A DNA stretch of 36,634 nt, from positions 3,692 to 40,325 of the forward strand of contig JAUMWT010000019.1 of NCBI GenBank assembly GCA_030529505.1, read 5' to 3'. Below are positions 12,726 to 36,634 of this stretch, piece by piece (position 1 is the stretch's first letter; every line of letters begins with the position of its first letter). Under the pieces are notes generated by a model that was not told the DNA's origin, ran no database searches, and worked only from the letters and a program-made list of their open reading frames with translations. The stretch comes from Allobrachymonas sp. (lineage in GTDB: Bacteria; Pseudomonadota; Gammaproteobacteria; Burkholderiales; Burkholderiaceae_C). Both the position numbers and the translations under genes were made by a program.

Positions 12726-12859
12726 TACACAAAATCCATGTGCGTTCATGGCTGATGTTTGTGGCTGATTTTGCGCAAACCCGCCCGCGTTGCTTCGGCA
12801 CAAAACCCAAAGGGGCGCCGTGAAATGACAGGCAAGGCGCATGCGGCAACAAGCCCTGA

Positions 12860-13051
12860 GAGCTTGTTCACCATCTCCTCACAAACAAACGCTTGAAAGT
12901 GGAGTCGGGCAGTCTGCTGCGTTGCAAATCTTGTCGATCATCTTGCGCATGTCGCACGGGCCATGCGCTTCGCCCATGTGCTTTGATGTGCGCCTTGCAG
13001 CCCATCCCGCCCCATATCCAATCGCCTCGCATTGAAATCGTGAAAAGGCTC
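12860..13051. mobile_element. MITE copy A (192 bp), IS5-type ends
   Basis: This non-coding element runs from GAGCTTGTTCACCATCTC at one end to a reverse complement of GAGCCTTTTCACGATTTC at the other, between direct repeats TGA (12857-12859 and 13052-13054). The interior is homologous, in opposite orientation, to 18291-18466: both share stretches such as GAGGCGATTGGATATGGGGC. The ends match the IS end at 36367. It carries no gene and is presumably moved by the IS transposase. Confidence 0.75.
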
Positions 13052-13054
13052 TGA

Positions 13055-13338
13055 GACCCCGTGGCCCTGATCCACCTGGGGCTTGATTGGGGCAAGCAAT
13101 GGGCAAGGCAGGCCACAAGAGCCGCGCTTTCAAAACCCGCCCCTGCATGCGCCATGCCTGCACAGGCTCGGCTTGGTGCGGGCTGCCCAAAGCGGCTGAT
13201 GCTTGAGCACAAGCAGCAGGCACATGCCAAAAATAGCGTGAGGGCACGCAGCGGCCTTGTTCGTGGCAATGACCACCCTGCCACAGTGCCCGAGAAGAAG
13301 CAACCCAAGGGCGTGCCCTGTGCCCTGTGCCCTGTGCC
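13055..13338. other. Non-coding stretch with heptad tandem repeat
   Basis: No credible gene was found. Four tandem copies of GTGCCCT (the last one GTGCCTT) occupy 13313-13340 and touch the stop codon of hemE (13339-13341). Such short tandem repeats can change length by slippage; here that would alter only the 3' end of hemE or its trailer. Confidence 0.5.
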
Positions 13339-14565
13339 TTATGCCGCTCTGCCGGATCTGCCCTTGCCCGCCGGCTGATTCGACTGGCGCATTTGCCGCG
13401 AGTGGCTGTGCACGGCTTCGACCAGCACGGCCACATGCTCGGGCGGGGTGTTTTGTTTGATGCCGTGGCCCAGATTGAAAATGAGTTGGCAACTTCGCCG
13501 GCCATTCTCATGCTGGCCATTTTCGTTTGTGTCGGGCACGCCAAAGGCAGCCAGCGTGCGCTGCACTTCGGCCTCAATGACAGCAGGCGGGGCAAAGAGC
13601 ACGGCAGGGTCGAGATTGCCTTGCAGTGATTGCTGAACCGGTTGCGCTTGGCGCTCATCGCTGGCGGCATGACTTTGCAACAGCGCGCGCGCTGCGCCCA
13701 GGTTCACCGTCCAGTCCACACCCAGCACATCGCAATCGAGCGTGCGCATGGCGGCCAGCCACTGCCCGCCGCCTTTGGTAAAGACGATGCGCGGCACCGT
13801 TTGCCCATCCGCCCCCGTGCGCTGCAACTGCTGCAGCACGCGCGCGGTGTAGGCGAGGCTGAAGGTTTGAAAGGCCCCATCGGCCAGCACCCCGCCCCAG
13901 CTGTCAAACAGCATCAGGGCCTGCGCGCCCGCGTCGATTTGCGCGTTGAGGTAGGCGGCCACGCTGTCGGCATTGATGGCCAGGATGCGGTGCAGCAGAT
14001 CGGGGCGGCTGTAGAGCAGGGTTTTGATGGTGGCGTAATCGGCGCTGGATCGCCCTTCCACCATGTAGCAGGCCAGCGTCCAGGGGCTGCCGGCAAAACC
14101 GATCAGCGGCACGCGCCCTTGCAGCGCGTGGCGGATGCTGCGCACGGCATCGAACACATAGCGCAGGCGATCCATATCGGGCACGGTCAGGCGGGCGACG
14201 TCGTCTTCATGGCGGATGGGGTGGGCGAATTGCGGCCCCTCGCCCGTCTGGAAAGACAGGCCCAGGCCCATCGCATCGGGCACGGTGAGGATGTCGCTGA
14301 ACAAAATGGCCGCATCCAGCGGGTAGCGCGCCAGCGGTTGCAGCGTCACCTCGGTGGCCAGATCCGGCGAGGTGGCCAGCCCCATGAAGCTGCCCGCCTG
14401 CGCGCGCAGGGCGCGGTATTCGGGCAGGTAGCGCCCGGCCTGCCGCATGAGCCAGACGGGGGTGTAGTCCGTGGCTTGCCCCAGGCAGGCGCGCAGAAAA
14501 GTGTCGTTGCGCAGGGGCGCAAAAGCGTTGGAAGCAGAAAGGGAAGAGGGGCTGGAATCCGTCAT
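13339..14565 (-). CDS. hemE: Uroporphyrinogen III decarboxylase
   Basis: HemE removes four acetate carboxyls from uroporphyrinogen III to give coproporphyrinogen III in haem synthesis, in the cytosol, without cofactor. Signatures: [15 protein letters not shown] (37-51), the catalytic-aspartate segment [14 protein letters not shown] (D91), [16 protein letters not shown] and the C-terminal FNLGHGI. At 408 residues it is some 40-50 longer than most bacterial HemE. The extra length lies in a polar insert before FNLGHGI ([16 protein letters not shown]), where relatives have a short turn, and in a basic C-terminal tail. No strong ribosome site is seen. Confidence 0.95.
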
Positions 14566-14892
14566 GGGAAGAAGGCTTCTTGAAAAGCGAGCTTGGAACT
14601 TTGCACGGAGCTTTTTTCAGCACGTGACTGCGCTCTGTTGGTGCGATGCACATTGACATGGCGCATGGGGCGAAGCGGTGGCGCCAAGCAGTTGCTGATT
14701 CGGCATGGAATCTGCGCCCGTTTCAGTACGGGTTGCCGTATCCGTTCGGTAACAGCCGCACATTGTGCGCAAGGCGCGCTTGGTTTGCAGCGGGTAGTTG
14801 CCATGCACCCGAAAGCAGGCTGGCTATTGTGGAATGGGTAGCGCTTGAAACAGTGGTGTGGCTGCGGGTATTGCCGCAGCACGATGCAGGCA
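14566..14892. other. Intergenic stretch between murJ and hemE
   Basis: No gene supported. It begins with an inverted repeat around GAAGAAGGCTTCTTG just upstream of hemE, probably part of its leader. Scattered short similarity to the MITE interior (for example CATTGACATGG followed by GGGGCG) is too weak to call a copy. Confidence 0.4.
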
Positions 14893-16452
14893 TCAACGCC
14901 GAATCTGCTCCAGCAGCTTGAAGCCACCTGCCCACAGCGCGCCAAAGTACACCACGGCCGCGCCCAGGCACACCAGCACGAACTGCGCCAGGCGCTGCAT
15001 GCGGCTGGCGGTGATCCACTGCAGGCTTTCATCTGCCCACAGCAAAAAGGCCATGAGCAGCAGCGTGGCCGCCACCACTTGCAAGGCGAAGTGGGCCCAG
15101 CCTTTTTCGGGCGTGTAAATGCCGCGGCGCAGCAGCAAGAACAAGAGCATGCCCGCATTGACGAGCGAAGCCAGCCCGATGGATAGCGACAAGCCGCCCG
15201 CAGCCAGACGCGGCACAAACACCAGGTTCATGAGCTGGGTGGCGATGAGCACGCCAATGGCCACCATCACGGGCGTTTTGATGTCTTGCCGCGCGTAATA
15301 GGCGGGGCCCAGAATCTTGATCGCAATCAGCCCCACCAGGCCCACGCCATAGCCCATGAGGGCCGATGCCGTTTGCTCCACATCGCGCGCGCCAAATGCG
15401 CCGTGCTGGTAAAGCACGCTCACCATCGGGCGAGCAAAGGTCAGCAGGGCAGCCGCGCAAGGCACGGCAATGAGCGTGACCGAACGCAGCGCCCAATCCA
15501 GCATCGACGAGTAACGCGCCTGGTCGCCCGCCGCCTGCGCCGCGGCGAGTTGCGGCATGAGGACAGACGCCATCGCCACACCCAGCAGCGCGGTGGGAAA
15601 TTCCATCAGCCGGTCGGCATAGCTCAGCCAGCTCACGCTGCCCGCGGCCAGGTGCGAAGCGATTTGCGTGTTGATGAGCAGCGAGATTTGCGCAACGCTC
15701 ACGCCCAGAATGGCGGGCACCATCAGCGCGCCGATGCGGCGCGTGTGCGGGTCAGCCAGGGCTTGTTGGATGGCCGGCAGCGTCAGCCCGATGCGCGGCA
15801 GCATGCCGATGCGGCGCAGCGCCAGCAGCTGCGCGCCCAGCTGCAGCAGGCCGCCGCTCATCACGCCGATACACAGGGCATACACGGGCTGCCAGCCCCA
15901 GCGGCCAAACAGCGGCGCGCCCAGCCAGGCCGCCAGAATCATCGTGATGTTGAGCAGCACGGGCGAAACCGCCGGCACGGCAAAACGCTTCCAGGTGTTG
16001 AGTACACCGGCAGCCAGCGCCACCAGCGACATGCAGCCAATGTAGGGAAAAATCCAGCGCGTCATCACCACCGCAGCGGCGTAACCTTCGGGGTGGCGCT
16101 TCAGGCCGCTGGCCATGAGCCACACCAGCAGCGGTGCGCCCATCACGCCCGCCAGGCAAACCAGCACCAGCAACCAGAACAAGACGGTGGCCACGCGGTT
16201 GAGCATCTGGCGCGTGGCGTCGTCACCTTCTTGCTCGCGCGTGGCGGCCAACACGGGCACAAAAGCCTGGCTGAACGCGCCTTCGGCAAACAGGCGGCGA
16301 AACAGATTGGGGATGCGAAAGGCGACGTTGAAGGCGTCGGTGAACTGGCTGGCGCCAAACATCGAGGCGATCAGCAGCTCGCGCACCAGCCCCAGCACGC
16401 GCGAGGCCAGAGTCAAGAGAGAAACGATCGATGCCGATTTGAACAGGCTCAC
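14893..16452 (-). CDS. murJ: Lipid II flippase MurJ (MviN)
   Basis: A 519-residue multipass membrane protein of the MOP superfamily that moves lipid II across the inner membrane for peptidoglycan synthesis. The N-terminus SLFKSASIVSLLTLASRVLG is canonical, with the essential-arginine segment GLVRELLIASMFGAS and FRIPNLFRRLFAEGAFSQAF following. About 14 hydrophobic helices are expected and the length is normal for the family. The start is GTG at 16452, chosen because any other start would disrupt the conserved N-terminus. It stands alone, leftward. Confidence 0.95.
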   Translation of the reverse strand: MSLFKSASIVSLLTLASRVLGLVRELLIASMFGASQFTDAFNVAFRIPNLFRRLFAEGAFSQAFVPVLAATREQEGDDATRQMLNRVATVLFWLLVLVCLAGVMGAPLLVWLMASGLKRHPEGYAAAVVMTRWIFPYIGCMSLVALAAGVLNTWKRFAVPAVSPVLLNITMILAAWLGAPLFGRWGWQPVYALCIGVMSGGLLQLGAQLLALRRIGMLPRIGLTLPAIQQALADPHTRRIGALMVPAILGVSVAQISLLINTQIASHLAAGSVSWLSYADRLMEFPTALLGVAMASVLMPQLAAAQAAGDQARYSSMLDWALRSVTLIAVPCAAALLTFARPMVSVLYQHGAFGARDVEQTASALMGYGVGLVGLIAIKILGPAYYARQDIKTPVMVAIGVLIATQLMNLVFVPRLAAGGLSLSIGLASLVNAGMLLFLLLRRGIYTPEKGWAHFALQVVAATLLLMAFLLWADESLQWITASRMQRLAQFVLVCLGAAVVYFGALWAGGFKLLEQIRR

Positions 16453-16497
16453 GCCAACCCCGTGTCAGGAGAAAACAAGCTGCCTAGTGTAGGGCTT

Positions 16498-16680
16498 GTT
16501 CACGTTTCTTTGAAGGAGGTCAGCTGCATCGAAAGAGCTGTTCGAAAAATCACTCGTCAAGGCGCCATCTACTGCGTGCAACATTCGACCAAGGCCAGGC
16601 AGATGAAGGCCTGTGTTGCGATTGACATGGGGCGCTTCTCGCCGGAAATTCGTTTGCTGGAAAGGCAGTGAATACATGAT
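16498..16680. repeat. Probable decayed MITE copy E
   Basis: GGGCTTGTTCACGTTTC at 16497 resembles the end of MITE A. Further in, TCTACTGCGTGCAACATTCG aligns with TCTGCTGCGTTGCAAATC of the better copies, and ATTGACATGGGGCG recalls their ATTGGATATGGGGCG. The far end and target duplication cannot be located, so the right limit is approximate. No gene is supported in 16453-16842. Confidence 0.35.
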
Positions 16681-16842
16681 GGGTGCCTATCGGCCATTGC
16701 CTGGCATGCGCTGTGGACTTGTGGCAGGCTGAGGACGGGGGGTGTTTCATGTCAGGCGGTAGGCGCTTGCGAGTGAGCCCGTGTGGGCGCATTGATGGCG
16801 TGACGTGGGTTGCATCCCACAAGGCGTGCCAAGATTTGCCCC

Positions 16843-16855
16843 GACAATGCGGCCC
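16843..16855 (+). promoter_or_regulatory. -10-like hexamer 7 nt before ATG (leaderless start candidate)
   Basis: GACAAT (16843-16848) is followed by GCGGCCC and then ATG at 16856. A transcript starting 7 bases after a -10 box would begin at the ATG itself. The same layout and nearly the same bases occur at 35781-35796. Confidence 0.45.
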
Positions 16856-18139
16856 ATGCGCACTTCCTATCCTGCAGCCCCTCCTCTCATGGCATCTTCT
16901 GTTGCCACCTACCCACCCAATCATGCCCTGACGGCGCATATCCGGCAGGCCATTGCGCAGGCCGGTGGCTGGCTGCCTTTTGATCGCTTCATGCACCTGG
17001 CGCTGTACACGCCGGGCCTGGGTTATTACGCGCGCAGTGATGCGCAATTGGGGCGCGGCTTGCGGCGTGATGAGGGCAGCGATTTCGTCACTGCGCCCGA
17101 ACTCAGCCCCCTGTTCGGGCGCACGCTGGCCGCGCAAGTGGCCGAAGCCTTGCAACGCAGCGGCACGGCCGAGGTGTGGGAATTTGGCGCGGGCAGCGGC
17201 GCGCTGGCTGAGCAGGTGCTGGATGCCTTGGCGGCACAAGGAATCAAGCTGCAACGCTACACCATCGTGGATGTATCGGGCAGCCTGCGCCAGCGCCAGC
17301 AGCGGCGGCTGGCACGCTTTGGCATGCAGGTGCAATGGCGCAATGCCTTGCCCGAAACCCTGCACGGCGTGCTGCTGGGCAATGAAGTGTTGGACGCAAT
17401 GCCCGTGCAATTGCTGCACCGCGTGGGCGGCGTGTGGCACGAGCGCGGCGTGGCCGTGCAGACTGTGGGCACGGAAAACGTGAGCGTGCCAAACACGGCT
17501 ATGCCAGCTGGTGCCGCGATTGAAACAGCCCCAGCCGCGAACGAAACCCGCCCAGCGCATACGGCGCATGCCGATGTGGCGGCAACGGCAAACGCCTTCG
17601 GCTTTGTCTGGCAAAACCGGCCCACCGCATTGCGCCCGCCCGTTGAAGTGGCGGGCGATCACGACTACCTCACCGAAATCCAGCCGCAGGCGCAAGCCTT
17701 CATCCGCACCGTGGCTGCGCGGCTGCAACAAGGCGCGGCCTTTTTCATCGACTACGGCTTTGGCGAACGCGAGTACTACCACCCCCAGCGCCACATGGGC
17801 ACCCTCATGTGCCACCGCGGCCACCGGGCCGATGCCGAGCCGTTGCACGCCGTGGGCGACAAGGACATCACCAGCCACATCGACTTCACCGCCGTGGCCG
17901 TGGCCGCGCAAGAGGCCGGCGCACACCTGCTGGGCTATACCAGCCAAGGGCGCTTTTTGCTCAACTGCGGCCTGGCCGAACACATGGCCGCAGCCGACCT
18001 GCCCGCGCGCACCCTGGCACACAAACTGGTGCTGGAGCACGAGATGGGCGAACTCTTCAAAGTGCTGGGCTTTTGCGCGGGCCTTGACCCCTGGCCCGCC
18101 CGCGGTTTTGCGGCAGGTGATCGGCTGCACACGCTGTGA
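16856..18139 (+). CDS. SAM-dependent methyltransferase of the MidA/NDUFAF7 family
   Basis: A protein of about 427 residues related to NDUFAF7/MidA, which in mitochondria symmetrically dimethylates an arginine of complex I subunit NDUFS2. The bacterial role is not established. Motifs: PFDRFMHLALYTPGLGYYAR near the N-terminus, SAM-binding VWEFGAGSGALAEQVL, LLGNEVLDAMPVQLL, FFIDYGFGEREYY and HRGHRADAEPLHAVGDKDIT. The middle carries an Ala/Thr-rich insert of about 40 residues (after GTENVSVPNTAMP). Start is uncertain: 16856 is taken for its -10-like box; ATG at 16847 and 16889 are alternatives and none has a ribosome site. Confidence 0.85.
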   Translation: MRTSYPAAPPLMASSVATYPPNHALTAHIRQAIAQAGGWLPFDRFMHLALYTPGLGYYARSDAQLGRGLRRDEGSDFVTAPELSPLFGRTLAAQVAEALQRSGTAEVWEFGAGSGALAEQVLDALAAQGIKLQRYTIVDVSGSLRQRQQRRLARFGMQVQWRNALPETLHGVLLGNEVLDAMPVQLLHRVGGVWHERGVAVQTVGTENVSVPNTAMPAGAAIETAPAANETRPAHTAHADVAATANAFGFVWQNRPTALRPPVEVAGDHDYLTEIQPQAQAFIRTVAARLQQGAAFFIDYGFGEREYYHPQRHMGTLMCHRGHRADAEPLHAVGDKDITSHIDFTAVAVAAQEAGAHLLGYTSQGRFLLNCGLAEHMAAADLPARTLAHKLVLEHEMGELFKVLGFCAGLDPWPARGFAAGDRLHTL

Positions 18140-18290
18140 AGCACGCCTTGCCGCATGCGCTAAAGGGAACAGCCAAAAGGAGCAGTCAGTAGCATGCTCC
18201 TGCGCTTCTTGCGCGATGCGCGAAGATCCTTTGCATGATGTGCCTGCTCAAAAAGCGAGCATCTATCCGGCCTTTTCCGCATTCCTCTCA

Positions 18291-18466
18291 GAGCCTGTTC
18301 ACGATCTCGACGCGAGGCGATTGGATATGGGGCGGGATGGGATGCAAGGCGCACACATCAAAGCATATGAGCGAAGGGCATAGCCCGTGCCATGGACGAG
18401 ATTTGCAACGCAGCAGACCGCCCGACTCCGTATTCAAGCGCCCGCGAGGAGATTGTGAACAGACGC
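18291..18466. mobile_element. MITE copy B (176 bp), IS5-type ends
   Basis: GAGCCTGTTCACGATCTC at the left end is identical to the IS end at 36367 over its first 17 bases. The right end, read on the other strand, is GCGTCTGTTCACAATCTC. TCA flanks both sides (18288-18290, 18467-18469). The interior matches copy A in inverted orientation, with a short internal deletion near the middle. Non-coding. It lies between the MidA and MgtC-type genes; the rest of 18140-18509 shows only a 7-bp hairpin AGGAGCA/TGCTCCT near 18179. Confidence 0.78.
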
Positions 18467-18509
18467 TCAATGGCCTGTTGCTTGATCAACAAGCCACAGC
18501 AACAGTCGT

Positions 18510-19205
18510 TTAGAAACTGAAGGAAACGATCCGCGGGTGCTTGAGCAGAAAGTCCTCCAGCGCCTGAAGCTGCGCGGCTTCGACCTTGATGTCTAAATGC
18601 ATGAAGAATTGGCCGGCGGGCGACTTTTCCAGCTTGCTCAGCTCCTGGTAATCGGTATAGCTTTGCAGCTCCTGCAACAGGGCATGGCGCTCTAAAGCGT
18701 GTTGCTGCGCCACTTCGACGACGAGGCTGCGGTGGTTGTAATTGGGGCTGTAGGCTTTCACCATGCGCCCGAAAAAGTAGATGATGACCAGGTCGCAAAG
18801 CAAGAAGATCAGGGCGATGTACACCTCGCCAAAACCAATGGCCATGCCCACCGCTGCGGCCACCCAAATCACCCCGGCCGTGGTCAGGCCGTAGATGGTG
18901 ACGCCCTCTTTATAGATCACGCCAGCACCCAGAAAGCCGATGCCGCTGATGATGCCGGCGGCGATGGAAAAGCTGTCGCCCTCGCCCATGAAATTTTGCG
19001 AAAGGCTGGCATAGATGGTCGATCCCAGACAGATCAGCGCAATCGTCTTGAGGCCAGCCGAATTGTTTTTGACTTCGCGCTCGTAACCGAGGACGCACCC
19101 CGCCAGCAGCGACAAAACGGCTTTCAGAATGTCGTCGTAATGAAAAGAGGGATTGATGTGCTGGAACAAATCATTCATGGCGTTCATGGCTCTGTCTGCA
19201 TCCAT
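18510..19205 (-). CDS. MgtC/SapB family membrane protein
   Basis: A 231-residue inner-membrane protein. The N-terminal domain holds four to five hydrophobic helices with the family motifs LAGCVLGYEREVKNNSAGLK, ALICLGSTIYASLS and GIGFLGAGVIYKEG, then GLTTAGVIWVAAAVGMAIG. A soluble C-terminal ACT-like domain follows from about 155 to the end. MgtC proteins are linked to survival at low magnesium and to ATP synthase control in pathogens; environmental members are uncharacterised. ATG 19205 is taken; ATG 19187 is a possible shorter start. TTGACA (19226-19221) may be part of its promoter. Confidence 0.9.
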   Translation of the reverse strand: MDADRAMNAMNDLFQHINPSFHYDDILKAVLSLLAGCVLGYEREVKNNSAGLKTIALICLGSTIYASLSQNFMGEGDSFSIAAGIISGIGFLGAGVIYKEGVTIYGLTTAGVIWVAAAVGMAIGFGEVYIALIFLLCDLVIIYFFGRMVKAYSPNYNHRSLVVEVAQQHALERHALLQELQSYTDYQELSKLEKSPAGQFFMHLDIKVEAAQLQALEDFLLKHPRIVSFSF

Positions 19206-19366
19206 TTAGATTCTAGATATTGTCAACCTGTTCACGGCCCTGGCTTGCGCTGGCCGCAGCAACTGCCCGGCCAGTCTGCGTTTGGCGCCGGGCCGCCATG
19301 CGCCCCATCGGCAGCGACCTTGCACAGCCAGGCGCCGAACAACGCGTTGCCTGCGGCGCAAGAGCG

Positions 19367-19414
19367 GCCATCCTGCCGCAAATCGCGGCGCGGCATTTGT
19401 CACGGATTGCGCGC
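19367..19414. repeat. 48-bp direct repeat, copy 1
   Basis: This 48-bp unit starts GCCATCCTGCCGCAAA and ends with TTGTCACGGATTGCGCGC. It equals 20969-21016 except at two positions, both in the loop of an internal hairpin GCCGC/GCGGC. The two copies, in the same orientation, bracket the GNAT, VOC and DUF1428 genes. Confidence 0.8.
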
Positions 19415-19475
19415 GGGAACAGAAAGCAGGTTTTATCCGCTCATATTCTGTTTGGCAAACCCGGGGGTTCATCAA

Positions 19476-19946
19476 TCAAAGTCCGCGAATCATGATGCAG
19501 TCCTCTTCATTTTCGCGAGCAACTTCAAAACCCAGTTTTTCATACATCCGCACCGCAGGATTGGCCTTTTGAACCGACAATGAAACCTGCCTGTATCCCC
19601 GCCCTTTCAAAGTCAAAATGATTTGCTTCATGAGCGCCGTGCCAATACCCAAATTTCTATATTCCTTGAGAAGCGAAATGGAAAGGGATGGGGTTTCATC
19701 ATCAACATGGGCGTAATCATTGATCATGCGCGTCCATACCGCCCCTACCACCTTACCCTCGACTTCCGCCACATAACAGACATCATCTTTTTTGCCAAAA
19801 TCCGCAACATATTTCTGCAAATCAGGGTGCTTTACGATATCTCTGGGCGGCGCTTGCGCTCCCTCGGGGATAAAAATCGCTTCATACAGAAATTCATCCA
19901 ATAACGGTATTTCGCACGATTTTAATTCTCTTATTTTATAATTCAT
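19476..19946 (-). CDS. GNAT family N-acetyltransferase
   Basis: A 156-residue acetyltransferase with the GNAT fold: CYVAEVEGKVVGAVWTRMIN, the acetyl-CoA loop LKEYRNLGIGTALMKQII (motif A, Q/RxxGxG/A), then SLSVQKANPAVRMYEKLGFE. Substrate unknown. The start at 19946 is preferred over 19985 because GAGG lies 6 bases upstream and the protein then begins MNYKIREL. Base composition is clearly more AT-rich than every neighbour, with AT-ending codons and a run of T/A around the start, so it is probably a recent horizontal acquisition. Confidence 0.88.
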   Translation of the reverse strand: MNYKIRELKSCEIPLLDEFLYEAIFIPEGAQAPPRDIVKHPDLQKYVADFGKKDDVCYVAEVEGKVVGAVWTRMINDYAHVDDETPSLSISLLKEYRNLGIGTALMKQIILTLKGRGYRQVSLSVQKANPAVRMYEKLGFEVARENEEDCIMIRGL

Positions 19947-20119
19947 GTCGACCTCAGTTTGATCCCATTGAGCCTTGAACGCCATGCCAAATCCGCAAGA
20001 CTTTCAGCTTTTTGATGGCGCAAACTCGTTTTGAAATGGGCAAGAGATTGATTGGAAGCCATCGAATCAGCGCGGCTGCCTGAAGCAGTTTCAGGCAGCC
20101 GCGCCGCTCATGACTACGC

Positions 20120-20557: not shown

Positions 20558-20593
20558 GGGGTTCTCCTTGGGTGAATGCGCCTCTGGCGCGGG

Positions 20594-20941: not shown

Positions 20942-20968
20942 GGGCGGCTCCTTGAAAATGGCAGAGCC

Positions 20969-21016
20969 GCCATCCTGCCGCAAACAGCGGCGCGGCATTT
21001 GTCACGGATTGCGCGC
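20969..21016. repeat. 48-bp direct repeat, copy 2
   Basis: Matches 19367-19414 at 46 of 48 positions. The two differing bases fall in the loop of the GCCGC/GCGGC hairpin, so the stem is intact in both copies. It lies immediately upstream of the DUF1428 start. Confidence 0.8.
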
Positions 21017-21087
21017 AGCCCCATGCAGCCGGGCGATCGTGCCTGCCCCAGGTGGCGATCAAGCGGACTTGAGCAGAAGCAATGGCT

Positions 21088-21717: not shown

Positions 21718-21804
21718 GCTGCTTTCCTCTGTTGGCCAAACGGGCTATTGTGGCCTTGGTTGCAAACTGGCCAGATGCGTTGCTGCCAGCCGCTTGCCGC
21801 ATCA

Positions 21805-22010
21805 GAAGCGGCTCATGATTCTGTCGCACGAAGCGATGGGATGGGATTCGGAATAAAGGGCCAGGCGAGCATTCAAATAGATGCACAACGCAGCGCCCGC
21901 GCCATATGGCTCGGGAGAACAAGATGGGCAAGGCCGCAGAGCGCCTCGTCCACGCTTCCTACGCTGCAAGCCATGATTCAAATGCCTGCGAGAAGATTTT
22001 GAACAGCTTC
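21805..22010. mobile_element. MITE copy C (206 bp), diverged
   Basis: Bounded by TCA on both sides (21802-21804, 22011-22013), with complementary ends GAAGC and GCTTC. Its right end GAAGCTGTTCAAAATCTTC (minus strand) resembles the IS end, and parts of the interior follow copy B with many substitutions. The right-hand TCA is, on the minus strand, the TGA stop codon of the AraC-type gene, so the insertion used a stop codon as its target and left the protein intact. Confidence 0.6.
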
Positions 22011-22793
22011 TCAGCCCTTGCGCAGATAGTCGAACAGCAGCTTGGGCAGGTTGACGGTAATCGGCGGGTCGCTCGCTTGCAAAGGGCGCAGTTGCAAATC
22101 GATGGTGCTGGGCGCGGCCATCGGAAAGCGGATGGCCTGCCCATGCATGCCGCGCGGGCAATGGTCGAGGCGAAAGTAATGCAGCGGGTTGCGGCTGGGC
22201 GCCATTTCGCAGCCCAGCAGCCAGTAGCTGCCGTTGGGCACGGCATCGATGCTGAACCGCCGACAGCCAAACAAGGCCGCGCCTGCCACGGGCACGCCAC
22301 GCGGAATCGGCTCTGCAAACAGGCCGGCAAACACCACATGGCGCGGGTGGCTGCCGCCGCTGATCTGCACCGTGAGCGCATGCGCTTGCGGATGCTGGGC
22401 GGGGTTGAAGCTGTGGTGCATCCATACGCGCTGGCGATCATCGGCCAGTTGCTGGCTGAGGGTGCTGCCCCAACTGGCGGCTTGCGCGCGATAGTCGCGC
22501 GGGCTTTGCCCAGTGTGGGCGCGAAAGCGATGGGCATAGGTGGCGGCGCTGGCATGCCCTGCTTCCAACTGCGAATCGATGATGGGCTGGCCCTCAACCA
22601 AGGGGCCAATGCCTTGCTCGATTTTCAGTGCGGCGATGTAATCGCGCAGGCTCAGCCCGGTTTGCGCGCGAAACCAGCGGCTGAGCCTGAAGCGGTTGAT
22701 GCCGAAATGCACGGCGATTTCGGCGGGGCGGGGATTTTCGTGCAGATGCGCGCGGATGTGGGCGGCGATGGCATCCAGATCGGGGGCAGGCAT
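22011..22793 (-). CDS. AraC family transcriptional regulator
   Basis: A regulator of about 260 residues with the DNA-binding domain first: DLDAIAAHIRAHLHENPRPA, then FGINRFRLSRWFRAQTGLSL and the second HTH AGHASAATYAHRFRAHTGQS ending PRDYR. The remaining 150 residues form a beta-rich domain (HVVFAGLFAEPIPRGVPVAG; VPNGSYWLLGCEMAP), presumably for effector sensing, which I cannot assign to a family. Start uncertain: 22793 is taken; 22865 is possible. Its stop codon coincides with the MITE C target site. The target genes are unknown. Confidence 0.82.
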   Translation of the reverse strand: MPAPDLDAIAAHIRAHLHENPRPAEIAVHFGINRFRLSRWFRAQTGLSLRDYIAALKIEQGIGPLVEGQPIIDSQLEAGHASAATYAHRFRAHTGQSPRDYRAQAASWGSTLSQQLADDRQRVWMHHSFNPAQHPQAHALTVQISGGSHPRHVVFAGLFAEPIPRGVPVAGAALFGCRRFSIDAVPNGSYWLLGCEMAPSRNPLHYFRLDHCPRGMHGQAIRFPMAAPSTIDLQLRPLQASDPPITVNLPKLLFDYLRKG

Positions 22794-22928
22794 GGGCAAT
22801 GGGGTCAGGCGGCGTTGTGTTGGCGTATTTTTGCGCGGCTGCCCAAGATGCTGAAGGCGCGGCAAGACGTTGCGAATGCCTGCAGCAAAGGCCTCTGCTC
22901 AACTCACGCAGTCATGCTTCATAAAAAA

Positions 22929-25834: not shown

Positions 25835-25845
25835 GCCCTCTGCAC

Positions 25846-27015: not shown

Positions 27016-27049
27016 GGCGCAACTAGGCAGAAGGCCACCCGGCAGCGGC

Positions 27050-27811: not shown

Positions 27812-27844
27812 GGCATGGAACTCCTGGAAATTTGGGGGCTGCAC

Positions 27845-28762: not shown

Positions 28763-28984
28763 GCTGGTGATCCCCCCGGTTGCGTGGACGTGCAAGTATG
28801 CGACGTGTTCAATATGCGGCATGCTCAATACGCGGCCTGCGCAGGGCGTTGGCCGCCCTGCCCTGGCTCCAGCCCGCCGCTCTGTCGCCAGTCGCGGGCC
28901 GAGCGAGCAGCCGGCCCTTGCGGGTGGCACGGTTGGCGCCCGCACGTTTCGCTTGCGGCTTCAACCGCTGCCGCCAACAGCGGC

Positions 28985-29842: not shown

Positions 29843-30220
29843 GTGCCACTCAGCTCGTCAAAAAGAAAAAGGCCCGTCAGATGCGGGGCGGTGGGTATGA
29901 GGTGCTTACAGCTGCCTCGGATGCGGCGCCGGATATCGGCCCAGCCATGTTCATCAAGCACGGGCATCAGATCAGGTGCAGGCAGCCGATGCAAACGGCA
30001 CGGTTGCCAGCGGCAGCGGCTCGACGGGCGGGCAAGTGGCAGGACCGCTTGTGTGGCCCCACCTCGCCCTACCACCACAGCACTTGTTACCGGAATCGCG
30101 GCCAGGCTGAGCCCTGGATTTGGGGCGGGCGATGCAAGCGGCGTTTCTGCCGCGAAACCTGCAAAGCTTGGGCATCGCCAAGCCCTCGTCTCCAGTACGC
30201 CAGCCCAGCCGGTGTACCGC
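29843..30220. other. Intergenic stretch without supported gene
   Basis: No reading frame here resembles a protein. A 6-bp stem GCTTGG/CCAAGC near 30168-30185 lies about 35-50 bases beyond the stop of the BMP gene but has no T run, so it is at best a weak terminator. Nothing else stands out. Confidence 0.4.
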
Positions 30221-31417
30221 TTACTTGGCGCCGGGCACCGTGCCTTCCACGCCTTGCACGTAGAAGTTGATGCCTTGCAGGAATTTATCGTCGGCCACCT
30301 GGTCTTTGGCCAGCACTTCCTTGCCGGATTGATCCAGGATCGGGCCTTTCCAGATGGTGAAGCTGCCATCTTTCAGGCCGGCCTTGACGGCTGCCAGTTT
30401 TTCGGTTGCGGCTGGCGGCACATCACTGGCAACGCCCACCAGGTCGATCGCGTCTTCTTTCACGCCCCACCAGGATTGATTGGGCTGCCATTTGCCATCG
30501 AGCACGTCACGCACGGTCTTGACGTAATAGGGGCCCCAGTTGATCACGGCCGAAGCGATGTGCGCCTTGGGGCCGTATTTGCTCATGTCCGAATCCCAGC
30601 CGAAGCCGCGCTTGCCCATTTTCTCGGCGGTTTGCAGCACGGCTGATGAGTCGGTGTTCTGGAACAGCACGTCGGCCCCGCCGTTGATGAGGGCCGTGGC
30701 CGCTTCGGTTTCCTTGGGCGGATCGAACCAGTTGTTGACCCAGACCACGCGCGTTTTGATGTTGGGGTTGGTGCTTTGCGCACCCAGCGTGAAGCTGTTG
30801 ATGTTGCGAATCACCTCGGGGATGGGCACCGAAGCCACCACGCCCAGGGTGTTGGTTTGGGTCATGTGGCCCGCCAGCACGCCCGCCATGTAGGCGCCTT
30901 CGTAAGTGCGGCTGTCGTAGTGGGCGAAGTTGGGCGCGGTTTTGTAGCCGGTGGCGTGCTCGAACTTCACGTTCGGAAAGTCTTTGGCGGCCTTGAGCGT
31001 GGGATCCATGAAGCCAAAGCTCGTGGCAAAAATCAACTGGTTGCCCTGGCCGGCCAGGTCGCGCGCCACGCGCTCGGCGTCGGGGCCTTCGGGCACGCTT
31101 TCGACGATGCTGGTTTGCACCTTGTCGCCAAATTCGGCTTCCACGGCTTTGCGGCCATTGTCGTGGGCATAGGTCCAGCCGCCATCGCCCACCGGCCCCA
31201 CGTAGATGAAGCCGATTTTGAGCGGGCCGCTGGCCGTACCAGCCGCGTTGCCGCCAGCCGCAGCAGCAGATGCCGACGCTGCAGCATCAGCCGCGCCAGC
31301 CTTGTCAGCCGAAGGCGTGTTGGGCGAGCAAGCGGCCAGCGCAGCCGCAGCCAGTGCGCCACCAGCCGCGCGCAGCCAGCGGCGCTTGTTCAGATCAGGG
31401 GTATTCAACAGATTCAT
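30221..31417 (-). CDS. BMP family ABC-transporter substrate-binding lipoprotein
   Basis: A 398-residue periplasmic binding protein of the Bmp/PnrA/Med family. The signal has a Tat-like KRRWLRAAGG followed by lipobox LAAC (Cys30), so a lipoprotein is likely. An Ala/Gly-rich linker leads to LKIGFIYVGPVGDGGWTYAH, then IFATSFGFMDP, KFEHATGYKTAPNFAHYDSR and GVLAGHMTQTNTLGVVAS, all typical of the family. Homologues bind nucleosides or purines. Start 31417 is preferred over 31423 because GAGGAA lies 6 bases upstream of it. Last gene of the importer operon, after a 184-bp gap. Confidence 0.93.
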   Translation of the reverse strand: MNLLNTPDLNKRRWLRAAGGALAAAALAACSPNTPSADKAGAADAAASASAAAAGGNAAGTASGPLKIGFIYVGPVGDGGWTYAHDNGRKAVEAEFGDKVQTSIVESVPEGPDAERVARDLAGQGNQLIFATSFGFMDPTLKAAKDFPNVKFEHATGYKTAPNFAHYDSRTYEGAYMAGVLAGHMTQTNTLGVVASVPIPEVIRNINSFTLGAQSTNPNIKTRVVWVNNWFDPPKETEAATALINGGADVLFQNTDSSAVLQTAEKMGKRGFGWDSDMSKYGPKAHIASAVINWGPYYVKTVRDVLDGKWQPNQSWWGVKEDAIDLVGVASDVPPAATEKLAAVKAGLKDGSFTIWKGPILDQSGKEVLAKDQVADDKFLQGINFYVQGVEGTVPGAK

Positions 31418-31601
31418 GGTCATTTCCTCAAGGCAGTAAAAACAAACAACAAGCAAAAACAATTCACCACAGGCCATCTACATGGCATTCGAAAGCCATC
31501 CTCTTCGGCCCTGCCCGTATCAGCCACCGCTGCCGAGCCTGCATCGCTTGCGCCAATGGCCCGCATCAAGGTGCGGAGCCCAGCGCCTGCTACGCAAACG
31601 C

Positions 31602-32507
31602 TCAACCCGGATGAAAAGGCTGGCCCAGCGCCGCCGGCCGGTTCACGCGAATCCAGGTCGGGTTGCGCGAAATCAGCATCAGCACCACGATGATGACCAG
31701 ATAGGGCAGCATGGTCAGCAACTGGCTGGGCACATCCACGCCCTGGCTTTGCAGCCAGAACTGCAACATCGTCACGCCGCCAAACAGCCACGCGCCCAGC
31801 AGCACGCGCAAGGGCCGCCAAGTGGCAAAGGTGGTAAGCGCCAGCGCAATCCAGCCTTTGCCGGCCACCATGCCCTCGACCCACTGCGGGGTGTACACCA
31901 GCGACAGATAAGCCCCGGCCAGCCCGCACAGGGCACCGCCTGCCAGCACCGCCAGCAGGCGAATGCGCCGCACGGGGTAGCCCAGGCCGTGAGCCGACGC
32001 GGGCGCCTCGCCCACACCGCGCAGCACCAGCCCGGCCCGGCTGCGATCAAAAAACCAGAGCAGAAACACGGCCAGGGCCACGCTCAGATACACCATTGGA
32101 TGCAGGGCCGAGAGCCACTGCCCCAGCAGCGACGATTCACCGGCTGCCGCAGCGTTGCGGGTAGGCAAGGCCTCTTGCGTGTAGGGCACGCCCACAAAGG
32201 CCGATAGGCCCGCGCCCAGCAGCGACAGCGCCAGGCCCGTGGCCGATTGGTTGGTGTTGAACCAGATCACCAGTACGCCCAAAGCGCCGGCCAGCACTGC
32301 GCCCGCAGCCATGCCTGCGGCAAAGCCCAGCCATACGCTGCCGGTGTGCACGGCTGTGGCGTAACCAGCCAAGGCGGCACAGAGCATCATGCCCTCGGCC
32401 CCCAAGTTGATGACGCCTGCTTTTTCATTGATGAGCAAGCCCAGCCCGGCCAGCGCCAGCACCGTGCCCGCGCTGAAGACCGACAGCAGCAGCCCGATGT
32501 CGTTCAT
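31602..32507 (-). CDS. ABC transporter permease, BMP-type operon (second permease)
   Basis: A 301-residue integral membrane protein of the RbsC/NupQ-like group: NDIGLLLSVFSAGTVLALAG, LINEKAGVINLGAEGMMLCA (the conserved EGM loop), SATGLALSLLGAGLSAFVGV and VAGKGWIALALTTFATWRPL. About eight to nine helices. Its start overlaps the stop of the other permease by ATGA (32504-32507), so the two are made together as the heterodimeric channel. Confidence 0.93.
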   Translation of the reverse strand: MNDIGLLLSVFSAGTVLALAGLGLLINEKAGVINLGAEGMMLCAALAGYATAVHTGSVWLGFAAGMAAGAVLAGALGVLVIWFNTNQSATGLALSLLGAGLSAFVGVPYTQEALPTRNAAAAGESSLLGQWLSALHPMVYLSVALAVFLLWFFDRSRAGLVLRGVGEAPASAHGLGYPVRRIRLLAVLAGGALCGLAGAYLSLVYTPQWVEGMVAGKGWIALALTTFATWRPLRVLLGAWLFGGVTMLQFWLQSQGVDVPSQLLTMLPYLVIIVVLMLISRNPTWIRVNRPAALGQPFHPG

Positions 32508-33862
32508 GGGGTGTTGTCCTCCTGCTCGTTCGGCGTGGTTGGTGCAGTTGTAGCCACTGCAGTAGCCGCCGCGCTGGCAGCGCCTGGGGCAAGGGCATGG
32601 CTGGCGTGATGGGCCTCACCCTTCGCAGATGCAGGTGCGCGCGCGCTTGCAGATGCCGCAGCAACAGCCATATCGCCTGTGGCGCCCCCCTCTGTTGCAA
32701 GAGCGGCACGCGCCGGAGCGACAGCGGCTACGGCAGAAGGAGCCTGCATCTCTTCTCCTGCCTCTTTTCTAGCCCCTTCTTCAGATCCTTTGGACACACG
32801 CCCACCCACACGCCGCCAGTGCGAATGGATCAAGGTGTCGCAAGCCAAGAGCGTGAACAGCAGCAACCCCTGAAACACCAGGCTGATCGACTTGGGCAGG
32901 CCCAGGCGCGATTGCGCCAGTTCGCCGCCGATGTAGAGCATGCTCATCAGAATCGACGAAAACACCACGCCCACCGGATGCAGGCGGCCCACAAAGGCCA
33001 CGATGATGGCGGCAAAGCCGTAGCCTGCGGGCAGGCTCAGCGTCAGTTGCCCGATGGGGCCAGCCACTTCCAGCGCGCCGGCCAAACCGGCTGCGCCGCC
33101 TGATACCAGCAGCGCCAGCCACAGGGCGCGGCGCGAAGAAAAGCCCGCATAACGTGCCGCCGCCGGGGCCATGCCGCCCACCTGCTGGGCAAAGCCGCCG
33201 CGCGTGCGAAACAGATACAGCCACAGCAGCACCGCGCCCAACAGGGCCAGCAGCAAGCCAATGTTCACGCGCGAACCGGCCACCAGCTTGGGCACGGCCG
33301 TGGCCGCTTCAAACAATTTGCTCAGCGGAAAGCCATAACCATCAGGATCTTTGAGCGGGCCGCTGACCATATAGCCCAGGAACTGCTCGGCCACATAAAC
33401 CAGCATCAGGCTCACGAGGATTTCGTTGGCGTGGAAATGATCGCGCAGCCAGGCCACCACCGCGCCCCAGACCATGCCGCCGGCCATGCCCGCCAGCAGC
33501 ACGGGCAGCACCATCCAGCGGCTGCTCTCGGGCCCGGCCATGAGCGCCACGGCGCCAGCGGCCACCGCGCCCATGATGAATTGCCCCTCGGCCCCGATGT
33601 TCCACACATTGGAGCGAAAGCACAGCGACAAGCCCAGCCCGATCAGCAGCAGCGGCGTGGCCTTGAGCAGCAATTCGCCCCAGGCGTAGCCGTTCTTGAT
33701 CGGCTCCCAGAAAAACACTTGCAAGCCCTGCACGGGGCTTTTGCCCAGCGCAGCAAACAAGAGCGAGGCCAGCCCCACGGTGAGCAGCAACGCCAGCAGG
33801 GGCGAAGCCAAGCTCCAGAAACGCGAGGGCTGCTGCCGCTGCACCCATTGCCAGCGCCTCAT
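32504..33862 (-). CDS. ABC transporter permease, BMP-type operon (first permease), with long tail
   Basis: A 452-residue NupP-like permease. The membrane part (about 17-345) shows LLIGLGLSLCFRSNVWNIGA then EGQFIMGAVAAG, SLMLVYVAEQFLGYMVSGPL and AGYGFAAIIVAFVGRLHPVG. From about residue 350 it carries a hydrophilic then Ala-rich tail of some 100 residues not usual in the family, ending in NEQEDNTP and overlapping the next gene. The tail may be cytoplasmic. Its start overlaps the ATPase stop (33859-33862). Confidence 0.92.
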   Translation of the reverse strand: MRRWQWVQRQQPSRFWSLASPLLALLLTVGLASLLFAALGKSPVQGLQVFFWEPIKNGYAWGELLLKATPLLLIGLGLSLCFRSNVWNIGAEGQFIMGAVAAGAVALMAGPESSRWMVLPVLLAGMAGGMVWGAVVAWLRDHFHANEILVSLMLVYVAEQFLGYMVSGPLKDPDGYGFPLSKLFEAATAVPKLVAGSRVNIGLLLALLGAVLLWLYLFRTRGGFAQQVGGMAPAAARYAGFSSRRALWLALLVSGGAAGLAGALEVAGPIGQLTLSLPAGYGFAAIIVAFVGRLHPVGVVFSSILMSMLYIGGELAQSRLGLPKSISLVFQGLLLFTLLACDTLIHSHWRRVGGRVSKGSEEGARKEAGEEMQAPSAVAAVAPARAALATEGGATGDMAVAAASASARAPASAKGEAHHASHALAPGAASAAATAVATTAPTTPNEQEDNTP

Positions 33863-35490
33863 CTCATGCTCCCTTCCGTGGTCTGCGCGGCTGTTGCCGG
33901 CATCTGCTCAGATGCAGCAGAGGGCGCAGGCTGGGCTGGGGCTGCAGCATCGGCTGCGCTGGCAACATCCGACACAGCCGCGGCAGGTTCGTCCCACAGG
34001 CCGCTCATCCACAGGCCGATGCGCTCCACCGTGGCTTCGGCCACAGGCAAAGCGGGTGACAAGCGCCCGCGCGCCATCACCACCAGCCGGTCGCTCAAGG
34101 CCAGCAGTTCGTCCAGTTCTTCGCTCACCACCAGCACGGCGCAGCCTGCATCGCGCAGGGCCATGATCTCGTGGTGGATTTGCGCGGCTGCGCCCACATC
34201 CACACCCCAGGTGGGCTGCGCCAGAATCAGCAGCTTGGGCTGGGCGCCGATTTCGCGGCCCACGATGAATTTTTGCAAGTTGCCGCCCGAAAGCGACTGC
34301 GCGGGCGCATCCACCCCACGCGCCTTCACGCCAAAGCGCTGCATCACTTGCTGCGCTTGCGCGCGCAAGGCAGCCATGTCGATCCAGCCGCTGCGGCGCA
34401 CGCTTTCGGTGCGCGTGAGCAGCATGTTGTGCATCAGGCCCAAGGCAGGCACGGCCCCGCGGCCCAAGCGCTCTTCAGGCACGAAGTGCAGGCCCGCGGT
34501 GCGGCGGCGCGCCGGGCCTCTGCGGCCAATGGATTGGCCCAGCAGGGTGATGGCGTTGGAAGGCGCACGCCGGTCTTCGCCCGAAAGGGCTTGCAGCAGC
34601 TCGCTTTGCCCGTTGCCGGACACACCGGCCAAGCCCACGACTTCGCCCGCGCGCACTTGCAGCCAGATGTTTTGCAAATCCACGCCAAAAGGGTCGCGCT
34701 TGGGCAGCGACAAGTTGTGCACGCCCAGCACCACCTCGCCCGTCTGGTGCGTGCGCGGCGGCAGCGCGGGTGGCTCCGCACCGATCATCATGCGGCTGAG
34801 GGTGGCATTGCTTTCTTGCCGCGGATCGCAATCGCCCGTCACGCGCCCGCCGCGCAGCACCGTGCATCGATGACACAACGCGCGAATTTCGTGCAATTTG
34901 TGGCTGATGTAAAGAATGCTGCAGCCTTCGGCCGCCAATTGGCGCAGCACGGCAAAGAGGCCCTCTACCGCCTGCGGGGTGAGCACCGAAGTGGGCTCAT
35001 CCAGAATCAGCAAGCGCGGGTTGGCGAGCAGGGCACGGATGATTTCGACCCGCTGCATTTCGCCCACGCTCAGCGTGTGCACCAAGCGTTGCGGATCAAT
35101 CGGCAACTTGTAGGCGGCGGCCTTTTCGGCCACCATCTGTGTGACTTCGGCCAGGGTATGCCGCGCCTGCAGGCCCAGCCACACGTTTTGCGCCACGGTG
35201 AGCGACTCAAACACATTGAAGTGCTGAAACACCATGGCAATGCCCAGTGCCCGCGCCTGCTGCGGGTTGGGCATGTGCACCACGCGCCCGTCCACGGCGA
35301 TGGTGCCGCTGTCGGGCTGGGTGGCGCCGTAGATGATCTTCATCAGGGTGGATTTACCCGCGCCGTTTTCGCCCAGCACGGCGTGGATTTCGCCGGGCTC
35401 TACCCGCAAATCGACCGCGTCATTGGCCACCACGCCCGGATAGGCCTTGGTGATGCGCGACAGTTGCAGGCGGGATGGTGTGGCAGACAT
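33859..35490 (-). CDS. ABC transporter ATP-binding protein with two ABC domains (BMP-type operon)
   Basis: A 543-residue sugar/nucleoside-type ATPase made of two fused ABC domains. Domain 1: Walker A GENGAGKST (40-48), signature LSVGEMQRVEI, Walker B LLILDEPTS. Domain 2: a degenerate P loop GLAGVSGNGQSELLQAL and Walker B LLILAQPTWGVDV in which the usual acidic Asp-Glu is replaced, but signature LSGGNLQKFIVGRE is kept. This asymmetry is normal for RbsA/NupO-like proteins. An Ala/Pro-rich tail closes the protein. First gene of the operon; start 35490 is chosen by homology, as no clear ribosome site is seen. Confidence 0.93.
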   Translation of the reverse strand: MSATPSRLQLSRITKAYPGVVANDAVDLRVEPGEIHAVLGENGAGKSTLMKIIYGATQPDSGTIAVDGRVVHMPNPQQARALGIAMVFQHFNVFESLTVAQNVWLGLQARHTLAEVTQMVAEKAAAYKLPIDPQRLVHTLSVGEMQRVEIIRALLANPRLLILDEPTSVLTPQAVEGLFAVLRQLAAEGCSILYISHKLHEIRALCHRCTVLRGGRVTGDCDPRQESNATLSRMMIGAEPPALPPRTHQTGEVVLGVHNLSLPKRDPFGVDLQNIWLQVRAGEVVGLAGVSGNGQSELLQALSGEDRRAPSNAITLLGQSIGRRGPARRRTAGLHFVPEERLGRGAVPALGLMHNMLLTRTESVRRSGWIDMAALRAQAQQVMQRFGVKARGVDAPAQSLSGGNLQKFIVGREIGAQPKLLILAQPTWGVDVGAAAQIHHEIMALRDAGCAVLVVSEELDELLALSDRLVVMARGRLSPALPVAEATVERIGLWMSGLWDEPAAAVSDVASAADAAAPAQPAPSAASEQMPATAAQTTEGSMR

Positions 35491-35556
35491 GGACAAGAAA
35501 GGGCTTGCGCAGGCCAGGCCGCTGCCGTTCTGTGCAAACGGAGCAGCACTCTGCTT

Positions 35557-35600
35557 GAAGCTGTTCAAAACCGCCTCACGTTGAGATTTTGAACAGCCTC
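35557..35600. repeat. 44-bp palindromic element D (two IS/MITE ends back to back)
   Basis: GAAGCTGTTCAAAACC on one side faces a reverse complement of GAGGCTGTTCAAAATCTC, with only about a dozen bases between them. Both arms match MITE C ends. It lies upstream of the importer operon, within 35491-35780, where no gene is supported. Confidence 0.6.
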
Positions 35601-35780
35601 CAAGGCATGCGCCAGAGAATCCGCGATTTTAAGGCGTTACGCCCTGCCATGCTGGCCGCGCCCGCCAAGGCAGCCGCTTTCCGGCACAAACCCTGATGCC
35701 CCTTGCCCACGAAGCTGTGATTGACCGCCAGCGGCCCTGCCCGCCGCAAGGGCTCTGCCCACAAATGACTTGCAAGCCGC

Positions 35781-35793
35781 CACAATGCGCCCC
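35781..35793 (+). promoter_or_regulatory. -10-like hexamer 7 nt before the hemerythrin ATG
   Basis: CACAAT (35781-35786), then GCGCCCC and ATG at 35794. The 15-base stretch from ACAAT through ATG differs at one position from the one before the MidA-type gene. No ribosome site is seen. Confidence 0.45.
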
Positions 35794-36300
35794 ATGAAAC
35801 CCATTGCCTTGACCGAACCCGCATCCCACCGCCGCCAGCCTGCCGAGGCCGCCAGCTTTGACGAACCACTCACCTTGTTGCACGCCTGCCACGACCGCGT
35901 GCATGAACGCTGCGCCCTGCTGCAAAAGCTCTGGCAGCACATGGCCACGCACGGCGCAGACACCCAGGCACAAGACGCTGCCGCCAACATCCTGCGCTAT
36001 TTCGACGTGGCCGCGCCACACCACCACGAGGACGAGGAACGCCACGTCTTTCCCGTGCTGCTGGCCAGCGGCGACGCCCAACTGGAACAGTGCGCACGCA
36101 CGCTGCTGCAACAGCACCAGGACATGGCCGCCACCTGGCAGCAACTGCGCCCCTTGCTGCAAGCGGCGCAACAGGGCCAAACGCCTGATCTGGCCGCGCA
36201 TGCGGGGCTGATTGAACAATTTTTGGCGCTGTACGAGGCGCACATCGCGCTGGAGGAGGAAGTGGCCTTTCCCGCCGGGTTTGCCGCCATGCCCGCCTAG
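35794..36300 (+). CDS. Hemerythrin-like HHE domain protein
   Basis: A 168-residue four-helix protein with histidine and acidic iron-ligand motifs: LLHACHDRVHERC, HHHEDEERHVFPVLLASGD, LLQQHQDMAATWQQL and LALYEAHIALEEEVAFPAG. Such HHE proteins bind a di-iron centre and may sense or store oxygen or respond to NO or redox stress; the specific role here is unknown. ATG 35794 is chosen because it follows the -10-like box and gives the usual start; upstream ATG 35785 is in frame. Confidence 0.85.
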   Translation: MKPIALTEPASHRRQPAEAASFDEPLTLLHACHDRVHERCALLQKLWQHMATHGADTQAQDAAANILRYFDVAAPHHHEDEERHVFPVLLASGDAQLEQCARTLLQQHQDMAATWQQLRPLLQAAQQGQTPDLAAHAGLIEQFLALYEAHIALEEEVAFPAGFAAMPA

Positions 36301-36366
36301 GCGCAAGCACAAGCGGGCGATGAAATGGCCGCCCGTCGCGGAGCCACAAGGGTGCCACTTGCCTAA

Positions 36367-36634
36367 GAGCCTGTTCACGATCTTTTGAGGACAAGAGCCA
36401 GGAAAGCAAGGTGGATGAACTGCAAGCTGGTGTTCAGCAGCCTCTCGCAGTTCTTCCACAACCTTCTGCTCTTCTCCAGCCAGGCAAAGCTGCGCTCAAC
36501 AATCCAGCGCTTGGGCATCACCTTGAACGTGTGCAACTCACTGCGCTTGGCCATCTGCACCTGGACGTGCTCTCCCAGTATGGTTTGTACGCCCTGTGCA
36601 AAGGGCTTGCCCACATAGCCACTGTCACACAGCA
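36367..36634 (-). mobile_element. End of an IS5-family insertion sequence (cut by window edge)
   Basis: The element end GAGCCTGTTCACGATCT starts at 36367, next to TAA (36364-36366), a TNA-type target. The transposase gene runs leftward to within 8 bases of this end. The other end is outside the window. The terminal sequence is shared with MITE copies A-D. Confidence 0.85.
36375..36634 (-). CDS. IS5 family transposase, C-terminal part (5' end beyond window)
   Basis: The visible 86 or so residues are the end of a DDE transposase: LCDSGYVGKPFAQG (the catalytic-Asp region), then KRWIVERSFAWLEKSRRLWK with the catalytic glutamate in WIVERSFAWL, and LLNTSLQFIHLAFLALVLKR. The reading frame continues past 36634, so the gene is incomplete only because of the window. 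The stop codon lies inside the terminal inverted repeat. Confidence 0.9.
   Translation of the reverse strand, partial: LCDSGYVGKPFAQGVQTILGEHVQVQMAKRSELHTFKVMPKRWIVERSFAWLEKSRRLWKNCERLLNTSLQFIHLAFLALVLKRS

Follow-up and report, generated by a model that had tools for sequence, protein, structure and literature searches.

A conserved folded core within IS5-ended MITEs of Allobrachymonas and within differently ended repeats of other Pseudomonadota

The stretch of DNA that we analyzed (36,634 nucleotides, called the window throughout) is C60:3692-40325 in our contig numbering, and belongs to a 2.39-Mb draft genome of Allobrachymonas sp. that comprises 100 contigs and is 83.5% complete. It contains one end of an IS5-family insertion sequence (IS) together with miniature inverted-repeat transposable elements (MITEs) that have the same ends, and inside these MITEs lies a conserved folded core, which is our subject here. 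The IS end, like the MITEs themselves assigned no strand, occupies 36367..36634 and is cut by the contig end; it holds the C-terminal part of an IS5-family transposase on the minus strand at 36375..36632 (DDE_Tnp_1_2, E = 9e-12; DDE_Tnp_1, E = 1e-9; NF033580, E = 1e-20, under that model's full-length cut-off). MITE copy A spans 12860..13051 (192 bp) between TGA triplets at 12857-12859 and 13052-13054, copy B spans 18291..18466 (176 bp) between TCA triplets at 18288-18290 and 18467-18469, and the decayed copy C spans 21805..22010 (206 bp) between TCA triplets at 21802-21804 and 22011-22013. Feature D, at 35557..35600 and likewise without strand, is a 44-bp palindrome made of the MITE ends without the interior; its flanks are CTTG and CAAG, so there is no TNA duplication, and from its sequence it looks like two consensus ends that have lost what lay between them. 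A first-pass annotation had placed A, B, C, D and the IS end at 36367 at these positions, where all were found, and had read the identical triplets on both sides of A, B and C as TNA duplications, as the sequence bears out. It had also given the IS a TAA, which is present on the left (36364-36366); the right side of the IS lies beyond the contig end.

The ends that A–D share with the IS recur throughout the genome. The 16-bp end, allowed up to three mismatches, occurred 421 times genome-wide versus 17 times for the reversed end used as a control, and a degenerate version allowed up to one mismatch occurred 343 times. The same degenerate end had 0–1 matches in seven of eight congeners and 25 in the eighth (G007). 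A survey of 824 kb, comprising the window and 787 kb of other DNA from the same genome, returned 75 end pairs, of which 4 were 44 bp long, 53 were 150–199 bp, 10 were 240–289 bp, and 8 had other lengths, some of these by chance. Altogether 66 of the 75 spanned 150–420 bp, and extrapolation from the 824 kb gives about 200 copies in the genome. Clustering by sequence separated a family of 52 elements (~158–199 bp) from another with 11 members. The proposal of an IS5-family element with its MITE family was right but incomplete, as further size classes of 44 bp and about 250–282 bp exist beside the main one. Elements of 158–282 bp lack transposase-sized frames, as checked in the window. The 52 copies yielded a 173-bp consensus that folds over its whole length, and their identity to it ranged from 0.66 to 0.91. 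This spread fits more than one wave, as the first-pass annotation had supposed in speaking of repeated bursts.

A–C insert at TNA, often within CTNAG, and duplicate the TNA. Among the 66 elements, TNA stood at the left of 47 and at the right of 42, compared with a background of 3.9% of positions between predicted genes, and 27 had identical 3-bp sequences on both sides, whether TNA-type or other. CTNA was found at the left of 27 elements, TNAG at the right of 28, and both in 12; the density of CTNAG between predicted genes is 1.6 per kb. Because intact elements start with G and end with C, insertion into CTNAG restores CTNAG on both sides, and three abutting element pairs in the 824 kb that share a single TNA fit this re-creation of the target.

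Three pieces of transposase identified the resident IS: DUF4096 matched in the first frame and DDE_Tnp_1 in the second, and NF033580 (IS5 family) matched all three, one of which passed its full-length cut-off, which supports the earlier attribution to an IS5-family element and its MITEs. Eight of the ten strongest copies of the IS end sit within ~420 bp of a contig end. A copy on contig C73 has both ends, and its far end, GAGCCTGCTCAAGATC, agrees with the near one apart from 2 mismatches, so the far side offers no case against the link between IS and MITEs; the outer triplets of this copy differ (TCA, TTA). Nested in it is a MITE flanked by TCA on either side. Sister IS copies on C14, C71, C95 and C81 are unoccupied at the aligned position; they have diverged, so that the site is aligned rather than identical. 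In the IS copy on C51, a MITE end lies at this site. The nested insertion and the unoccupied sister sites suggest, at the level of sequence, that the MITEs, A–C included, may be mobilized in trans by the IS5-family transposase. We used the nested copy in place of empty sites in relatives, since the flanks of B and C were not comparable. The gene upstream of B is kept in seven of the eight congeners (72–82% identity) and the stretch after B is not; for want of a conserved downstream flank, empty sites could not be demonstrated for B or C, and no matching ends were found at the seven congener loci that correspond to B.

Unequal outer triplets were seen both in the C73 copy (L075 906-1921; TCA/TTA) and in an IS copy on an Aromatoleum plasmid (L234 1201-1693; TGA/TTA), a pattern that suggests deletion or recombination between copies. 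On C95 (L079 1-1077) the DNA fused to an IS5 piece has a minus-strand frame at 68-367, which we take to resemble an IS1595-type transposase. The window also contains a direct repeat of 54 nucleotides (19361-19414 and 20963-21016; 94% identity) that has no relation to the MITE ends.

The interior proved to be the conserved part of the MITEs. It is common to A and B, which match each other in opposite orientation over arms of 70, 49 and 40 nucleotides at 88–93%, and it is unlike the visible part of the transposase; both points had been made before, and the origin of the interior, then left open, is partly answered by a conserved folded core of ~75 nucleotides, 5'-..GCAAGGCGC-N4-CGCAG-(apical hairpin)-CAAG-N4-GCAACGC..-3'. 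We searched for it with three covariance models: R1, built from 22 sequences; R2, built without any Neisseria sequence; and R3, built on the folding strand from 84 sequences (alignment A3). All derive from related sequences and were calibrated on only 0.2 Mb, so their E-values are rough. R3 placed the core of A at 12907..13009 on the minus strand, the strand that folds with wobble pairs (39.2 bits, E = 1.7e-7), and the core of B at 18333..18423 on the plus strand (38.8 bits, E = 2.3e-7), with R2 matching the opposite strand in both (42.3 and 43.4 bits, respectively). Copy B folds at a z-score of −8.9; in C the core match was not significant (R2, 14.5 bits, E = 0.14) and the fold had a z-score of −0.5. 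Across the 824 kb, R3 detected 69 cores (E ≤ 0.01). Nine close pairs of R3 matches occurred in the genome, six of them inverted cores 33–34 bp apart and one in the same order. Five of the six inverted pairs lie within elements of the ~280-bp class, and inverted two-core elements are common in other genomes too.

Selection acts on the ability of the module to fold. Over the 84 sequences of A3 (97 candidates, 15 of which were dropped by hand, plus 2 copies from our own genome), the motifs CAAGGCGC and GCAACGC are near-invariant, and the arms between them vary in a compensating way: 88.7% of cells were paired versus 64.8% after shuffling, both-side changes numbered 521 versus 164, the covariation score was 0.612 versus 0.166 (0.124 for the best slid control), and all five measures exceeded every shuffle. 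A smaller alignment, A2, held 64 sequences found by R1 or blast and then filtered by a motif that left the arms free, a procedure that dropped 43 of 107 cores as near-duplicates or for length or register; there 88.3% of cells were paired versus 64.2% after shuffling, with 369 versus 113 both-side cells. We also assembled 81 cores selected by a structure-free sequence pattern (the pattern-only set), which contained 52 distinct arm combinations. In these, Watson–Crick pairs made up 171 of 208 arm pairs versus 67 when shuffled, and 22 of the 52 combinations were perfectly paired versus 0.8 in shuffles.

The pattern-only copies also showed that one strand is the folding strand, a result from which one set of sequences, A2, departs. 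Their mismatches comprised 23 A.C and 0 G.T as first written, which is equivalent to 23 G.T and 0 A.C on the complement, and we refer to this complement as the folding strand. Counted across the 25 pairs of A3, G.T outnumbered A.C by 65 to 7 in the 40 pattern-only rows and by 130 to 28 in the full 84 rows. The inner stem of the pattern-only loci was strongly biased (60 to 13). In a comparison with the replication strand, by base skew in 58 cases, the folding strand was the C-rich strand in 36, the G-rich strand in 20 and unclear in 2 (p ~0.04, uncorrected), a difference that we do not rely on. A search of 34 loci against Rfam (E ≤ 1) returned nothing over a core at gathering score; the sub-threshold overlaps were MIR1437 (L141), M23 (L186), MIR1151 (L188) and CC0196 (L175).

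The same module lies within MITE-like repeats with other ends in many Pseudomonadota. When B was compared by blast with 60 genomes including its own, 10 matched (9 of the 59 relatives), often over just a 45-bp stretch, and the loci in the relatives held the core between other inverted repeats: GGCAACGCTGAACAAGTC or a near version of it in five genomes, and further GAGGCTGTTTGCAAAA, GAGCCTGTTTACGCTC, GAACGTGTCTACGATC and GTGAAACCTCTGCATAAC, with one genome (G026) carrying 267-bp core elements that have GAACCTGTTCACGATC ends. Judged by eye, about a dozen or more types of end surround the core; a grouping of 120 clustered rows into 35 end groups was not used, as single linkage merges types and some rows are chance repeats within genes. 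With our own genome counted, R1 matched 83 of 370 genomes of the class (E ≤ 1e-4; 79 of the 363 good ones) and R3 matched 59 of 299 genomes of the phylum (E ≤ 1e-5; 56 of the 292 good ones), 27 of the 59 falling outside the class. The structure-free pattern, run over genome contigs, found at least 117 stretches. Among the 80 loci listed, most are from beta- or gammaproteobacteria, several are assigned only to Proteobacteria/Pseudomonadota, and one is from a Bacteroidetes metagenome-assembled genome; they include Stutzerimonas, Pseudomonas, Thioalkalivibrio, Wenzhouxiangella, Nitrosomonas, Nitrosovibrio, Thiobacillus, Methylobacillus, Propionivibrio, Sideroxydans and Nevskia, among others. In plasmid records B had a single 31-bp match (Cupriavidus) and element L190 had none, and in IMG/VR the core pattern matched one contig. 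Those portions of the open-access literature that were available contained no earlier account of a core shared among MITEs with different ends.

Several observations concern these other genomes individually. G056, from another family, had 117 matches to the ends found in the window and no R2 match to the core, and possibly harbors an IS or MITE family with these ends that does without the core. Core elements with CTAG ends look like insertions of the IS630 type, which insert at the TA inside CTAG, and a different transposase family was considered as their source; DDE_3 matched in five of nine genomes searched, the nearby MITE ends (L259, L262) belonged to a neighboring or interrupted MITE, and the search turned up no IS that has the ends of the MITE itself, the DDE_3 element of G235 (L261) having CTAG ends that are similar, not identical. 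G235 also has two-core elements near contig ends (L236, L237, L240) with the same 22-nucleotide insert exactly at conserved core positions, in both arms in L240 and with the apical hairpin lost in L237; the insert could mark a natural subfamily, a hairpin-specific event or an assembly artefact. A cluster of tRNA genes in G023 contains a core element (L136 1454-1615) that has tRNA-Cys (1117-1197) on one side and tRNA-His (1667-1743) on the other; the element is bordered by half sequences resembling tRNA, on which ARAGORN makes no call.

Among described repeats, the Correia elements of Neisseria (CREE/NEMIS), known since the 1980s, resemble the window MITEs in several ways: they too are short palindromic MITEs that lie between genes, have inverted ends, reach high copy numbers and contain a core with a direction, and R2 aligns over the whole of that core. 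In contrast to the GAGCCTGTTCACGATC-like ends of the window MITEs, the 26-bp Correia ends begin with TATAGTGGATTAA, and the variable helix of the Correia core is only partly paired. When 300 genomes of the order were searched for the published Correia ends, whose sequences are given in PMC5039591, three had matches (222, 9 and 1), and our own genome (G000) had none. At E ≤ 0.05, R2 had 8 matches in each of two Neisseria-type genomes, G661 and G409 (E 0.002–0.05 per genome), and none in G631 or G056. Correia ends stood on both sides of 13 of these 16 matches (six in one genome and seven in the other), one of them with a mismatch in each end. The remaining three (L218, L219 and L220, in G661 and G409) lack Correia ends, and L218 and L220 have other inverted ends. 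By sequence, Correia elements are probably relatives that carry the same module. The window MITEs share their ends and target with a resident IS5-family element, as IS5-family MITEs with a TNA target do, and differ from these in an interior that does not come from the visible part of the IS and is common to MITEs with other ends. The ERIC sequences of Enterobacteriaceae, imperfect palindromic repeats between genes, are similar in kind, and R3 found no match (E ≤ 10) in one 851-base Kosakonia stretch that matches an ERIC-like 51-mer. REP/REPIN sequences with RAYT transposases form hairpins, often in inverted pairs, as do the two-core elements here; their GTAG-type tag was not noted in the elements here, and 108 kb of E. 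coli K-12, in which the presence of REPs was not established, contained no R3 match.

We consider it probable (roughly 0.6) that these elements are IS5-ended MITEs enclosing a selected, strand-specific fold that serves the element, with Correia elements as probable relatives. The core hairpin may form in RNA copied from the element or in single-stranded DNA, where it could be recognized by a host factor or by the transposition machinery; most likely it would serve the element itself rather than a neighboring host gene, and the hairpin module would be retained while the element ends change. Tentatively, and at somewhat less than even odds, this extends to a core that is a selfish structured passenger (RNA or single-stranded DNA), recognized by a conserved host or transposition factor and spread across Pseudomonadota within elements that have exchanged their ends and with them their transposases, with Correia as one branch.

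Several results weigh against this picture of a selected fold serving the element. The rows of our alignments are related, so shuffles overstate covariation; because relatedness can cause an excess of pairs, we give more weight to the slid controls and to the fact that all four pair types are used. In A2, one of the five measures (further pair types) did not beat the shuffles, and its variable helix, with 10 G.T and 12 A.C as written, showed no strand bias; we trusted the pattern-only set above A2 because R1 had scored wobbles on the opposite strand, which is a judgement. The outer stem of the pattern-only loci had no more than a mild bias on the folding strand (64 to 42), and the four 44-bp pairs in the 824 kb lack the core. 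The R2 matches to Correia cores scored only 23–28 bits and the R3 search of the phylum (E ≤ 1e-5) found nothing in G409, which leaves the Correia kinship probable, not proved.

The rival that survives best, though we think it unlikely, is an ordinary MITE family with neutral filler as its interior; other genera would have this filler through common descent and horizontal transfer, and the ends would diverge or recombine meanwhile. Such filler would accommodate the copies that grade into heavy decay, C among them, and the core-less 44-bp copies, and any tolerated insertion would avoid genes as these elements do: 64 of the 66 lie between predicted genes, one inside a gene and one at an edge, compared with 57% of random placements inside, and only 3 of the 69 core matches fall inside predicted genes (a simple caller based on codon usage gave 567 genes and a coding fraction of 0.77, hence an incomplete set). 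However, the two near-invariant motifs would not stay so amid compensating changes in the arms, and the one-sided tolerance of wobbles in the pattern-only set would go unexplained. A host regulatory RNA element, such as a processing site in untranslated regions, is distinctly improbable. Such an element would account for the strand-specific fold, and PMC2649163 and PMC10969869 describe cleavage of Correia-bearing mRNA by RNase III. The folding strand, however, is opposite to the genes as often as it is the same (in co-directional gaps, 19 versus 15 for single cores and 5 versus 3 for core pairs), the types of gap that hold elements match the background, and seven of the eight congeners have so few of the ends. 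Less credible still is a cruciform or other double-stranded DNA signal with no preference for a folding strand. Such a signal would fit the unbiased A2 helix, the long outer stem with its mild bias, and the many elements that come close to being complete palindromes; the preponderance of G.T over A.C, both among the pattern-only rows and across A3, argues against it. That G+C-rich hairpins were simply caught by models built from related sequences with a short calibration is very improbable, since the structure-free pattern finds the core with paired arms that it did not ask for, 100 kb of E. coli K-12 gave no R3 match with E ≤ 5, and most tested genomes have no match.

What is ordinary in this system is an IS5-family element accompanied by many MITEs; what is unusual is that, over much of Pseudomonadota, MITEs with different ends have a conserved fold in common. 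Bacterial MITEs are usually taken as decayed insertion sequences with an interior of little meaning. In the elements described here it is the interior that is conserved, and the ends are what can be exchanged. If this is true, MITE families that have been described genome by genome, probably including Correia, would be branches of one superfamily united by a structured core, and why such elements retain their interior would become a testable question.

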